This document shows positions 27,524-31,887 of a stretch of DNA of 64,000 nucleotides, piece after piece (position 1 is the first letter of the stretch; every line of letters starts with the position of its first letter). A program made the translations under genes and the position numbers. The stretch is taken from NCBI RefSeq assembly GCF_006715785.1, contig NZ_VFNX01000001.1, forward strand, positions 2,990,501 to 3,054,500. Reading direction: 5' to 3'. This DNA comes from Streptomyces puniciscabiei (lineage in GTDB: Bacteria; Actinomycetota; Actinomycetes; Streptomycetales; Streptomycetaceae). A model generated the notes under the pieces. It was not told where the DNA came from. It searched no databases and saw only the letters and a list, made by a program, of their open reading frames with translations.

Positions 27524-28009
27524 ATGACGGCAACGGGGGAGACGGGGCCCGAAGGGGCTTCGGTCCGCAGGGAGTTCGCGTTAGAGCGGTACCGCTACAT
27601 CCTGCAGCAGATCAACGCGGTGAACGAGAACGCCCACCGCTTCCTCGCCCTCTACCAGACGCTCGCCACCGCACTCGCGAGCGGCGCCGTCGCCCTCTTC
27701 GTGGGATACCGGAGGTGGGACATCCCCGCGTCCACCGCGCGCGGCGGTGTGATCGGGCTGCTCACCCTGACCACCGTGGTCGCCGCCTTCACCTGCACCC
27801 TGATCCTCGTCGGCGTGCTGTCCTGGCTCGACTACCGCAACGAAGAGTGCGACATCACCGACGAGTTGATCGGCCCCGGCTTCCGCGAGCGTCCCCGCCC
27901 CGGCAACTTCGTGCGCTGGTACGAGACGTACGTACTGCTCTTCATCCTCGTCTCGGTGATCGCGATGTGGCTGCTCGCCGGGCTCCTCCTCCTGCCGTCG
28001 ATGAGGTGA
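27524..28009 (+). CDS. Three-span membrane protein, partner of HD/Hsp90-like ATPase
   Basis: 161 residues. A helical N-terminus (FALERYRYILQQINAVNENAHRF) precedes two membrane spans (LATALASGAVALFVGY and VIGLLTLTTVVAAFTCTLILVGVL). A cytoplasmic stretch DYRNEECDITDELIGPGF follows, then a third span (YVLLFILVSVIAMWLLAGLLLL). Codon 20 (27581) is TTA, the rare leucine codon read by the bldA tRNA in Streptomyces. Its stop is embedded in the ribosome site of the next gene, so the two are translationally linked. In conflict systems such small membrane proteins are often effectors or anchors; that role is inference here. Confidence 0.75.
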   Translation: MTATGETGPEGASVRREFALERYRYILQQINAVNENAHRFLALYQTLATALASGAVALFVGYRRWDIPASTARGGVIGLLTLTTVVAAFTCTLILVGVLSWLDYRNEECDITDELIGPGFRERPRPGNFVRWYETYVLLFILVSVIAMWLLAGLLLLPSMR

Positions 28010-28017
28010 TCGTCCCG

Positions 28018-30702
28018 GTGCCCGAGCACGGCTACCAGAGCACCTTCCTGTGGCGGAGCACCCTGGCCGCGAGGACGGACGGTGACGCCCAGGCCGAGCA
28101 GCGCGAACAGCTGCGCACGTCGTACCTCGACCTGCGCCGGAACGCGGCGGTGCTCCTCGGGGAGAACGCCCGCAGCATGCCCGACTTCACGGTGCACGAC
28201 ATCAGCCATGTGGACGCCCTGTGGGAGACGGCCGATCTCGTGTGCGGACACGAGGTCACCCTCAATCCCGCCGAGGCGTACGTCCTCGGGTGTGCCTTCG
28301 TGCTGCACGACGCCGCGATGGGCGAGGCCGCGTACCGGACGAGCGTGCGGGACACCCTGGGTGAGTCACGCTGGCACGACCTCGTGTCGATGACGTACTA
28401 CCACCGCAAGGGGTGCTGGCCGGACCGGGACGAGCTGGACGATCCGCCCGCCGAGATCACCGAGGAGTGCCGGGCGACCGCCATCCGCGAGACGCACGCG
28501 GAACAGGCGCGCCGCCTGGTGGACCAGGCCTGGCGGTCCAGCACGGGCCAGGAGATCCACCTCATCGAGGACGGCCGGCTGCGCGAGTTCTACGGCCCGT
28601 TGATCGGCGCTCTCGCGGCCAGCCACTGGTGGCCCGTGGACCGGCTCGCGGAGGAGTTCCGCCACCGCAGCGGTCCACTCCCCGGGCAGCCGGGCGAGTG
28701 GACCCTCGACAAGCTCAAACTGGCCTGCGTCCTGCGGCTCGCCGACGCCACCCAGATCGACGCCCGGCGCGCTCCGGAGTTCCTGTTCTCGCTGCGCGAT
28801 CCGCAGGGCGGCTCCCGGGAGCACTGGCGTTTCCAGGTGCACGTCAGCCAACCGGTGCTGGACGGCGACCGGGTCAGGTACTCCTCCAACCGGCCGTTCC
28901 TCCCCGAGGACACCGGTGCCTGGTGGCTGGCCCTCGACCACCTGCGCGCCGTCGACCGCGAACTGAAAGCCGTCGACGCACTCCTGCACGACCACGGGCA
29001 GCACCGGCTCGCGGCCCGCGCGGTCGCCGGGGTCGACGCGCCGGAGCGGTTCGCCCAGCACTTCCGCGTCCAGGGCTGGCGCCCCATCGACGCCACGGTC
29101 AAGGTCTCCGACGTCCCCGCCCTGGTCAAGAGCCTGGGCGGGGAGCAGCTGTACGGCGACCAGCCGGAGGTCGCGGTGCGCGAACTGATCCAGAACGCTC
29201 AGGACGCCGTCCTGGCCCGCCAGGCGCTGCAACCCGGCTTCACCGACGGGCGCATCGAGGTCCGGCTGACCCGGACCGACGGCTCCTGGCAGCTGGAGGT
29301 CCGCGACAACGGCCTCGGCATGGACGAGGAGACCCTCATCCACGGCCTGCTCGACTTCGGCAACAGCGGCTGGAGTTCCGCCGCCGTCCGCAACCGGCTG
29401 CCCGGGCTCGCCGACGGCGGGTTCACGCCCAGCGGGCGGTTCGGCATCGGCTTCTTCTCCGTGTTCCTGCTGGGCGACGAGGTGGAGCTGATCACCCGCC
29501 GCTACGACGCCGGCACCCAGGACGCCCGCCGCCTCTCCTTCGACGGCCCGTCCAGCCGCCCCCTGCTGACACCACTGACCGGCCAGGGCTGGGTCCCGGA
29601 GGGCACGACGGTCCGCGTCACCCTGAAGAAGGGCCCCAACGACGTGCGGGGTCTGCTCTACTACACCGACGACGACCGTCTCGACCAGCTGGTGCGGCGG
29701 CTGGTCCTGGAGAACGCCGTACCCATCCGCATCTGGGAACCGGGCGCGTCCGATCCCGGGGTCCTCGCCCCCTTCTCCCTGGCCACGGGAGAGGCGGACG
29801 AGGTCTTCGACCGGCTGCATCCACCGGCGACCCACGGATGGCGCGCCGGGCAGGAGAAGCAACGTCTCCGGCTGCGCGACGACTTCGTGCGCCGGGCCAC
29901 GGAACTCCTCGACGACCGGGGACGGCGTATCGGCCTGGCCACGCTCGGGGACGAACTGTTCTACGCGGGGCGCGGCAACTACCGGGGGATCGTCACGGTC
30001 AACGGGTTCCTGGCGGACGAGTCGACCGCCTTCGCCGGGTACCTCGCCGGCCGGCCCGGCCGGGCCTCGCGCGACCAGGCCGCCCTGGTCGCCACGCAGG
30101 ACGGGATGCGCGCGTGGATGCGCAGCCAGGAGCAACGGCTCCGCGACCTCGGGCAGTTCAGCGACCCCTTCCAGCTGGAACACGCCTACACCCTGTACAG
30201 CGCCTTCAACGGGATCCCGGACGACGTCGCCTTCGCCATCACGGGCCAGGGCCTGCTCCGTCCGGCCGACGCCGCCGGCTGGGTCGCCCGGCGCGACGAG
30301 GTCTTCCTGTCCTTCGGTCTTCCCCTGGCATGGCGAAGCCGGCCTCCGGAGGTCCTCCACTACTTGTCGGGGCAGTCCGTGCGACTGCCCGAGGACTGGA
30401 TCATCATCTGCGGCAGAGCCGCCACCGCGCCCCTGTCGGAGGTGTTCCCTGCGGTGGAGAACTTTGACGCCGACTACGGGTTCGCACGCCACCACACCAC
30501 GCTGACCTGGCAGAAGGCGTGGTGGCGGATGTCGGGGGAGCTTGAAGGGCTCTTCCTTCGCGCCGTGTGCGAGGCATGGTCGTGCACCCTTGAGGCCGTG
30601 CTCGCGCCCGTCGAGCGGCGCAACTGGTACGACATCCGCCACCTGGACGACGAGAGCCTCGGCGGCGTCCTGGGCTACCTCCTGCGCCGACCGGGCCGAT
30701 GA
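28018..30702 (+). CDS. HD-domain plus Hsp90-like ATPase, candidate defence protein
   Basis: 894 residues. Residues ~50-260 carry HD-hydrolase features: TVHDISHVDALWE, FVLHDAAMG (His97-Asp98) and LRLADATQID (Asp243). Residues ~375-540 are a GHKL/Hsp90-type ATPase: VRELIQNAQDAVLA (N box), EVRDNGLGMDEETL (G1) and SGRFGIGFFSVFLLG (G2). A long C-terminal region without recognised motifs follows. From memory this HD plus Hsp90-like fusion matches the HD-Ce class described in computational surveys of bacterial conflict systems. GTG at 28018 has GAGGTGAT 7 bases upstream; the GTG overlapping the previous stop is an alternative. It lies between metG and a DoxX gene as an apparent insertion. Confidence 0.82.
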   Translation: MPEHGYQSTFLWRSTLAARTDGDAQAEQREQLRTSYLDLRRNAAVLLGENARSMPDFTVHDISHVDALWETADLVCGHEVTLNPAEAYVLGCAFVLHDAAMGEAAYRTSVRDTLGESRWHDLVSMTYYHRKGCWPDRDELDDPPAEITEECRATAIRETHAEQARRLVDQAWRSSTGQEIHLIEDGRLREFYGPLIGALAASHWWPVDRLAEEFRHRSGPLPGQPGEWTLDKLKLACVLRLADATQIDARRAPEFLFSLRDPQGGSREHWRFQVHVSQPVLDGDRVRYSSNRPFLPEDTGAWWLALDHLRAVDRELKAVDALLHDHGQHRLAARAVAGVDAPERFAQHFRVQGWRPIDATVKVSDVPALVKSLGGEQLYGDQPEVAVRELIQNAQDAVLARQALQPGFTDGRIEVRLTRTDGSWQLEVRDNGLGMDEETLIHGLLDFGNSGWSSAAVRNRLPGLADGGFTPSGRFGIGFFSVFLLGDEVELITRRYDAGTQDARRLSFDGPSSRPLLTPLTGQGWVPEGTTVRVTLKKGPNDVRGLLYYTDDDRLDQLVRRLVLENAVPIRIWEPGASDPGVLAPFSLATGEADEVFDRLHPPATHGWRAGQEKQRLRLRDDFVRRATELLDDRGRRIGLATLGDELFYAGRGNYRGIVTVNGFLADESTAFAGYLAGRPGRASRDQAALVATQDGMRAWMRSQEQRLRDLGQFSDPFQLEHAYTLYSAFNGIPDDVAFAITGQGLLRPADAAGWVARRDEVFLSFGLPLAWRSRPPEVLHYLSGQSVRLPEDWIIICGRAATAPLSEVFPAVENFDADYGFARHHTTLTWQKAWWRMSGELEGLFLRAVCEAWSCTLEAVLAPVERRNWYDIRHLDDESLGGVLGYLLRRPGR

Positions 30703-30744: not shown

Positions 30745-31092
30745 TCAGGCGGCGTGTCCGAGGACGAGCGCGCCGACGACGGGGGCCGCGTAGATCAGCG
30801 GGAAGGGGATGTGGGAGTACCAGCGGGCGCGGGCCACGGTGACAGCGGCCCCGAGGAAGTAGAGCACCAGCCCGATCCCGGCCAGCACCCCGATCACCGG
30901 CACGAACAGCCCGACGACCAGACCCACGGCCCCGGCGGCCTTGGCCACCCCGAGCAGGGTCCACCACGATCGCGGCACCCGGTAGTCGGTGAGCGTCTTG
31001 ACGATCCACTGGGCCCGCAGCAGCAGTACGGCGCCGGAGAAACCGGCCATCAGCGCGGCGAGCAGGGTGACGACGATGTGGGCGGTGTGCAT
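30745..31092 (-). CDS. DoxX-like membrane protein
   Basis: 115 residues, four hydrophobic spans. The middle segment WWTLLGVAKAAGAVGLVVGLFVPVIGVLAGIGLVLYF is typical of DoxX-like proteins, small inner-membrane proteins with a loose link to redox or thiosulfate metabolism. ATG at 31092 with GGGAGCC upstream. Convergent with the HD/Hsp90 gene and divergent from the AbiEii-like gene. Confidence 0.8.
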   Translation of the reverse strand: MHTAHIVVTLLAALMAGFSGAVLLLRAQWIVKTLTDYRVPRSWWTLLGVAKAAGAVGLVVGLFVPVIGVLAGIGLVLYFLGAAVTVARARWYSHIPFPLIYAAPVVGALVLGHAA

Positions 31093-31179: not shown

Positions 31180-31887
31180 TTGAACGTCCCCGAACCCCAC
31201 CACCGGCTCCTCGCCGACGTCGTCACCACGGGCGGTCCGTACGGGCTGGTGCTCGCCGGTGGATACGCGCTGCAGGCGCACGGACTGGTGTCGCGTCCGC
31301 ACGCGAATCTCGACTTCGCCACGGAGAGTTCCGAGGGCATGGACCGGATCGCCGCCGCGCTCGGCACGGCCCTGGAGGCGCGGGGCCGGCAGGTGCGAGT
31401 CGGTGCGGTCGCCGCGCTCAGCGCGCAGCTGACGGTCAGCGACCCGCCGACCGGCGGGAGGTGCGCCCTCGTGCTGCACAAGGAGGCCTTCTGGCAGCCG
31501 CCGGCGCTCACCGCGTACGGGCCTGCGCTCTCCCTGGAGGACGCCGTCGGCACGAAGATCCGGGCGCTGTACGACCGGGGCGCGGCCGTCGACCTGATCG
31601 ACGCGCGGGCCGCCGCCGCCCGCTTCTCCCTGCCCGACCTGGAGGAACTGGGCCGTCGGCACGCCCACGACCCGTTCGATCTGCCGACCCTGCAGTCCCG
31701 GCTGACGGGTACGGACTTCTATTCCGACGTGGACTTCTTCCGGTACGGGCTGACGGAGGACCAGGTCATGGCCCTGCGCGCCTGGGCCCAGCGCTGGTCC
31801 GACGACATCGCCGAGCGCCTCCTGGAAGACGGCGCGTCCCCCGACATCGAGCCGGAGACGGACTCCGGCCCCGACGCGGGGGACTGA
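31180..31887 (+). CDS. AbiEii/MenT-like nucleotidyltransferase-fold protein
   Basis: 235 residues. The nucleotidyltransferase motif region reads LVLAGGYALQAHGLVSRPHANLDFAT: the Gly-Gly is intact but the metal-binding D-x-[DE] has become N-L-D. A later conserved block TKIRALYDRGAAVDLIDARA matches the family. In classical AbiE toxin-antitoxin pairs an AbiEi antitoxin precedes this gene; none is present here. TTG start taken because no ATG/GTG fits and GGAAAA lies upstream. It may be a housekeeping or inactive relative rather than a toxin. Last ~20 residues are acidic. Confidence 0.72.
   Translation: MNVPEPHHRLLADVVTTGGPYGLVLAGGYALQAHGLVSRPHANLDFATESSEGMDRIAAALGTALEARGRQVRVGAVAALSAQLTVSDPPTGGRCALVLHKEAFWQPPALTAYGPALSLEDAVGTKIRALYDRGAAVDLIDARAAAARFSLPDLEELGRRHAHDPFDLPTLQSRLTGTDFYSDVDFFRYGLTEDQVMALRAWAQRWSDDIAERLLEDGASPDIEPETDSGPDAGD

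Follow-up and report, generated by a model that had tools for sequence, protein, structure and literature searches.

Organization of the cassette and domain architecture of B

The DNA analyzed here (the window) is a stretch of 64,000 nucleotides from Streptomyces puniciscabiei (contig NZ_VFNX01000001.1, positions 2,990,501 to 3,054,500 of the forward strand), in which we examined two linked genes: gene A, encoding a small membrane protein, and gene B, encoding a fusion of an HD-CE domain with an Hsp90-like ATPase (Table 1). A preliminary description of the window had proposed that positions 27524 to 30702 hold a two-gene cassette, possibly a conflict or anti-phage system, and the two open reading frames of 161 and 894 residues bear out the cassette.

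Table 1. Coordinates of the features of the A-B cassette in the window
Feature	Positions	Strand	Basis
Gene A: 161 residues, three long helices, conserved partner of HD-CE-Hsp90 proteins	27524..28009	+	Open reading frame, predicted structure, searches
Gene B: 894-residue HD-CE/Hsp90-like ATPase fusion (alternative in-frame GTG at 28006)	28018..30702	+	Open reading frame, Pfam, structure comparison
End of A and likely ribosome site of B (GAGGTGA); ATG AGG TGA are the two last codons and the stop of A	28001..28009	+	Eight junctions
HD-CE domain, B residues 54-317: H60, D61, H64, H97, D98, H160, H203, D243	28177..28968	+	Pfam, alignments
GHKL/Hsp90 N-type ATP-binding domain, B residues 383-497	29164..29508	+	Pfam, alignments
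Hsp90 middle-domain-like region, about B residues 498-724, including R685	29509..30189	+	Alignment, structure comparison

The TGA stop codon of A sits within the stretch ATGAGGTGA at all eight junctions that were compared (those of the window, L043, L044, L045, L046, L096, L002, and L003), in agreement with the earlier statement that A stops inside the ribosome site of B. A GTG codon in frame with B occurs upstream of the ATPase gene's proposed start at 28018, and the listed copy P0003 (898 residues) is consistent with the use of this codon. Since ATGAGGTGA is found at all eight junctions and the GTG is in frame in the window alone (in none of the seven others), 28018 is the better start, as first proposed, and position 28006 was ruled out.

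At an E value of 0.01, the only Pfam families matched by B were HD-CE and two HATPase families. In particular, PF24391 (HD-CE) matched with an E value of 3e-52 and 178 bits, against a gathering threshold of 27, and HATPase_c_3 with an E value of 7e-9; at the same threshold, no match to iHD-CE (PF24401) or to caspase (Peptidase_C14) was obtained in B, nor was the DUF4263 nuclease of Shedu found. Furthermore, B has both the GHKL N domain and the middle-domain fold of Hsp90. As for its C-terminal part, some alignments with Hsp90 reach about residue 870, at a root mean square deviation of 6 to 8 Å, and others end near residues 715 to 740.

The catalytic residues were followed in 61 homologues chosen from 120 listed, 59 of which have the HD domain. 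The ATP-binding residues E389, N393, D430-G432-G434-M435, G473, G476, and G478, together with D396 and T530, are identical in all 61, and the complete GHKL/Hsp90-type ATP site described beforehand is thereby corroborated. R685, in the middle-domain-like region, is likewise identical in 61/61 close homologues; any role for it is one that we assume from Hsp90. The HD residues first pointed out (H64, H97, D98, and D243) are present in B as described, and every homologue having the domain except P0105 (58/59) retains them along with H203. Minor departures are a tyrosine at position 160 in P0090 and changes at positions 61, 66, and 250 in P0121. In a second alignment, which included divergent B proteins, positions 60, 64, 97, 98, 160, 203, and 243 are intact in 18/18 rows, and position 61 is a glycine in the B protein of Nonomuraea. 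The HD domain of B thus carries the ligand set of the intact, active form and is predicted to be a hydrolase, with a pattern that we take to resemble that of two-metal HD enzymes.

For A, the AlphaFold2 model (mean predicted local distance difference test score, 74.8) features long helices at residues 9 to 61, 69 to 116, and 134 to 160. At a hydropathy threshold of 1.6, two regions are clear, and the first span (about residues 43 to 62) rises above the threshold in the Nonomuraea orthologue only. Hence, of the three-span protein originally described, the three long helices are retained by the prediction and two of the spans are evident from hydropathy; the model makes three membrane spans plausible. 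In Pfam, no family scored above the cut-off with A. Matches of A and its homologues to ThrE, DUF2157, and MlaE were set aside, as they lie below the cut-off and resemble matches due to membrane composition, and membership of A in the SLATT group was also rejected, no SLATT family of Pfam being matched by A (E 0.01) or by five homologues (E 1).

Distribution of the pair and its gene arrangements

A was found in 7 of 199 genomes of the genus and then in 11 of 392 in a larger sample that overlaps the former, at 12 loci altogether. This rules out the status of a core gene, in line with the accessory nature first suggested, and a B-type gene adjoins A at 12/12 loci, as co-inheritance of the two genes would have it. 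A followed by B in the form seen in the window occurs at seven loci (G000, G027, G104, G132, G109, G1013, and G1113). Decayed pairs, with both genes affected, occur at G009 and G956:C70; in G031 (GC content, 0.51) and G956:C43, A stands beside a divergent B; and in G1018, A and B are convergent on opposite strands. In Nonomuraea gerenzanensis, B precedes A and the ends of the genes overlap. It follows that the A-B pairing outlasts three gene arrangements (A-B, B-A in Nonomuraea, and convergent in G1018). Two further pairs lie between metG and aspS, in S. guryensis and Streptomyces sp. NRRL S-646, where one gene separates metG from A; B is broken in the latter strain. On these sequences, the pair is accessory and bears signs of horizontal spread.

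A appears to be rare outside the genus, because a class-wide profile search with A over 394 genomes matched its own genome only. In a phage collection, nine records gave matches to B, all partial and located in or around the ATPase domain, and no phage carrier was found. Plasmid matches to B amounted to 250 records; among the 40 listed, 38 (all except those of Nonomuraea and Zymomonas) cover 20 to 30% of B and fall in or around its ATPase part. We also observed, in another family of the phylum (G262, L080:7137-9805), a low-GC (0.50) HD-CE-HATPase gene that is apparently frame-broken.

Exchange of A for SLATT_2

PF24391 was surveyed at an E value of 1e-8 or better and was found in 62 of 323 genomes. 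Twelve loci score at least 160 bits, their open reading frames being 801 to 1131 residues long, and to these a decayed locus can be added, a fragment in G009 (110 bits). The listed matches do not include G1113. The HD ligands are kept at all 13 of these strong-scoring loci of the genus, 11 of which have A as the neighbor of B. At the other two (G147 and G1028), the membrane partner is instead a SLATT_2 protein: P0244 of G147 matches PF18183 with an E value of 3e-26, and the copy in G1028, at the same position, is 71% identical to it.

The B of G147, partnered by SLATT_2, and the B of G031, partnered by A, are 54% identical. With respect to the window, the A of G031 is 71% identical and its B only 22%. 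Within the lineage of the window's B, A proteins share 70 to 78% identity and B proteins 65 to 72%; because A and B diverge to a similar extent there, the mismatch in G031 points to exchange between lineages and not to slow change of A. This claim rests on the identities, the tree support for the placement of the A of G031 being weak (0.127). Judging from these comparisons, A and SLATT_2 evidently replace each other beside B.

Related proteins with other effector domains

Fifty of the 62 HD-CE-positive genomes have only matches of 120 bits or less, the G009 fragment excluded, and 21 of these weaker-scoring proteins were aligned as a sister class. Every one of the 21 gave matches to both iHD-CE and wHTH-HSP90_Na-assoc; a caspase domain is present in 16. 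The HD dyad is lost in 21/21, and the final aspartate is lost in the 20 that reach that column (L134 ends before it, and L118 is gapped at the first motif). Moreover, P0105, which aligns over the whole of B with 50% identity, bears an N-terminal TIR domain (E 4e-8), a degenerate HD site, and an ATP site that is kept. It is possible to hypothesize a conserved core with varying outputs, in which the HD site tends to be lost where another effector is built in; this trend is only suggestive, because it was seen in a single TIR fusion and in only one protein class, the majority of whose members have a caspase domain.

Other HD-CE proteins show further combinations. P0108 is an N-terminal fusion of HTH_3 to HD-CE-HATPase with an intact HD site, possibly a self-regulated form. 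In G465 (L084:801-3098), HD-CE is fused to a CARF-type domain (Cas_APE2256), and the neighbors, by eye, resemble components of a type III CRISPR system. G529 (L086:7139-10975) combines HD-CE with a NACHT NTPase and a long HEAT array, at a GC content of 0.48, lower than that of the upstream genes. On the Zymomonas plasmid pZMOB03 (L087:12678-15263), a TIR-domain gene lies about 1 kb downstream of the HD-CE-Hsp90 gene, with short open reading frames only in between.

Comparison with known systems

The iHD-CE/wHTH-HSP90_Na proteins (PF24401, PF24410, and PF00656) resemble B in that one chain holds an HD-CE-like domain and, after it, an Hsp90-type ATPase region. They differ in the loss of the HD dyad, in the frequent caspase domain, and in their length (1407 to 2030 residues according to open reading frame calls), whereas in the window's B the HD site is intact, no caspase match was obtained (as is also the case for 5 of the 21 class members), and the membrane partner is a separate protein. 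SLATT_2 (PF18183) is comparable with A as a small membrane protein encoded beside an HD-CE-Hsp90 gene (in G147 and G1028), although A, with its three predicted helices, shares no detectable sequence similarity with the protein of G147. SLATT proteins have been predicted to be pores that respond to nucleotide signals and accompany nucleotide-related effectors (PMC7159879); as far as it is set out in the parts of that source considered here, the prediction fits an HD enzyme with SLATT or A as a partner.

According to the portions of the report on VcSduA-type Shedu that we drew on, this anti-phage system joins a GHKL ATPase to a DUF4263 nuclease, which the ATPase is hypothesized to control (PMC12137116). 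It is like B in that a GHKL ATPase is coupled to a hydrolase in a single chain, but the hydrolase is a PD-(D/E)xK nuclease, the ATPase is N-terminal, the order of domains is another one, and those portions mention no membrane partner (PMC12137116). With Hsp90/HtpG, B shares the ATP-binding N domain and the middle domain; different from it, B is fused to HD-CE and remains far below the cut-off of the HtpG equivalog (61.2 bits versus 371). Finally, P0105 (TIR-HD-CE-HATPase) is a relative of B with a known immune effector domain, from which B differs since in P0105 the TIR domain is N-terminal and the HD site degenerate.

Proposed function and alternative explanations

With modest confidence, we read the cassette as a two-gene, horizontally spread, modular conflict system that most likely acts against phages, probably by abortive infection. 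This reading, which had been anticipated in the preliminary description, is based on the signs of horizontal spread, the decayed copies, the exchange with SLATT_2, the TIR fusion, and the caspase-bearing relatives. B would be the switch: its Hsp90-like ATP clamp, made up of the N and middle domains and a divergent C-terminal part, may recognize a sign of infection, and ATP-driven closure of the clamp would license the HD domain linked to it, a putative metal phosphohydrolase acting on a nucleotide, a cyclic nucleotide, or a nucleic acid. A would be the membrane arm which, together with B, breaches or depolarizes the membrane, a task that in sister systems may fall to SLATT_2, a predicted nucleotide-responsive pore. 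The sequences themselves establish the domains, their intact sites, the accessory occurrence, the unbroken pairing across the sampled genus, and the replacement of A by SLATT_2; the sensing, the catalysis and its substrate, the pore activity, and phage defense itself are what we infer. A more specific version, put forward here only tentatively, is that the Hsp90-type clamp is an infection-sensing switch, that the HD domain makes or destroys a nucleotide signal gating an interchangeable membrane breacher (A or SLATT_2), and that the HD domain is dispensable and decays once a TIR or caspase domain has been built in.

Several observations weigh against this reading. Concerning the genes themselves, the PADLOC-DB 2.0.0 models gave no match with A at E 0.1 and, with B, only a weak one to TmtA (E 0.0011); position 473 is a serine and position 685 a valine in the B proteins of G031, G956:C43, G147, and G1028; and the TIR fusion was found in one protein only. 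A has no match among solved structures and no similarity to P0244, the profile-comparison probability being 0.2%, so that a pore role for A draws solely on the exchange with SLATT_2. The pairing is also incomplete beyond the A loci, as G196 has only a C-terminal remnant of B without A, and no A or SLATT_2 was found by tblastn in the stretches surrounding the B-like genes of the Zymomonas plasmid, G262, and G495.

Concerning the surroundings, the metG-aspS interval is, by its gene content, a variable site with mixed, apparently non-defense cargo and not a defense island. PADLOC matches were obtained for at most 2 of 49 other genes of the window (E 1e-10). At nine loci that do not lie by metG, a set made up of A loci, both SLATT_2 loci, and the remnant in G196, at most 12 of 97 neighbor proteins were matched, and the matches fell in 14 families; this enrichment is not significant (p 0.14). 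The neighbor genes were called by a method based on GC content at third codon positions, which missed low-GC genes in L049, L095, and L050. Among the defense neighbors, HmaC is the firmest; it occurs with HmaB next to the B of G1028 that has SLATT_2 as its partner. GajA and PDC-S07 are among the families matched; the matches to SspH, mad2, mad3, and WYL cover the models in part, and that to 2OG concerns a short model. The survey of neighbors thus upheld the constant pairing expected of the cassette and yielded HmaBC and other candidate defense genes short of a significant enrichment.

Part of the evidence would also suit a different division of labor in the same conflict system. The toxic output, whether by nuclease activity or by (d)NTP hydrolysis, would then come from the HD domain alone, and A would only be an anchor or a sensor of membrane damage that either recruits B or holds it in check. 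The TIR fusion and the iHD-CE proteins have both lost the HD site, as for an interchangeable effector; in the CARF-type fusion of G465, the HD domain would be the output; and A is small and devoid of a recognizable enzyme domain. However, a small membrane partner is carried by all 13 HD-intact loci of the genus, and a swap with a pore-type protein such as SLATT_2 is not what one would predict for a simple anchor, so that we regard this arrangement as rather unlikely. If the cassette had nothing to do with defense, it could serve in stress or in quality control at the membrane, as a module whose Hsp90-type chaperone and nucleotide hydrolase tend A or its clients. The genuine Hsp90 N and middle domains, the membrane nature of the partner, and the ordinary neighborhood in the window, with its few PADLOC matches, would agree with such a module, which should nevertheless be conserved if it were a core one; the sporadic occurrence of the cassette (11/392), its movement and decay, and a core of the same kind as in TIR- and caspase-bearing proteins make this explanation improbable.

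There is equally little likelihood, in our opinion, that the cassette is a selfish or inter-bacterial element, namely a toxin-immunity or addiction pair maintaining its own locus, with A toxic and B controlling it or the reverse. The close linkage of the genes, their joint presence at every A locus and at variable sites, and the decay of both in G009 and G956:C70 are what such a pair would display, but a toxin-antitoxin pair needs neither an ATP-driven Hsp90 clamp nor an intact HD enzyme, the TIR and caspase relatives resemble immune proteins, and the remnant of B in G196 stands without A. The modular conflict system described above is the reading that we retain: its support from spread, decay, exchange, and relatives holds, and the window locus itself contributes no defense island to it.

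The families HD-CE, iHD-CE, SLATT_2, and Hsp90-like ATPases are already catalogued; from the Pfam names we presume that earlier surveys of conflict systems had come across them, although no such paper was found. Family A, the constancy of its pairing with HD-intact B proteins in this sample, its replacement by SLATT_2, and the missing HD site of the TIR and caspase relatives appear to be undescribed in the literature searched. If the reading is correct, Hsp90-type ATPases would join the set of bacterial infection sensors, in a two-gene system where sensing, enzymatic signal, and membrane output are separable. The exchange between A and SLATT_2 and the HD loss in the TIR and caspase relatives make the roles of the modules directly testable, and they provide a first handle on the unnamed membrane family A and on the inactivation of the HD domain in caspase-Hsp90 proteins.

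Genomic neighborhood and further observations

In the window, the order of genes is metG, A, B, a DoxX-like gene (30745 to 31092), an AbiEii-like gene, and aspS. The cassette does lie between metG and aspS, as reported beforehand, with the DoxX-like gene intervening between B and the AbiEii-aspS block; the claim that it has no housekeeping neighbor fails, metG and aspS being just that. In the relative G016, other genes occupy the same junction; aspS is kept, and so, judged by eye, are the DoxX-like and AbiEii-like genes. A search of 41 relatives returned 17 with the window-type metG at E 1e-100, 14 of them of the genus. Of these 14, 11 have metG and aspS within 10 kb of each other; the two genes are widely separated in G006 and G012 and lie on separate contigs in G001. 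The gap is 0.13 to 0.9 kb in G002, G008, G010, G018, and G021, and it holds 4 to 8 kb of other cargo, e.g., pectate lyase-like and FG-GAP-like genes (by eye), in G011, G013, G022, and G024.

Six of the 12 A loci are near metG (G000, G104, G027, G132, G009, and G1013), and the stretches fetched for the other six (G109, G031, G956 twice, G1018, and G1113) contain no metG, for which reason a function tied to metG or to translation was rejected. PDC-S27-like genes occur by the pairs of L002 and G956:C70. At the decayed locus of G009 (L048:969-4621), two dynamin-like genes, one of them matching LeoBC/LeoA, are found near the cassette and aspS.

The AbiEii-like nucleotidyltransferase gene of the window (31180 to 31887), which adjoins aspS, was recognized by a weak match (E 5e-7), and AbiEii-like proteins were also seen by eye in the metG-aspS interval of G016 and G013. 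Moreover, four carriers of the cassette (L044:11383-12999, L045:11290-12906, L048:10255-11871, and L096:745-2361) encode, at this locus, a methionyl-tRNA synthetase only about 26% identical to that of the window's metG, so that two types of this enzyme alternate at one site.

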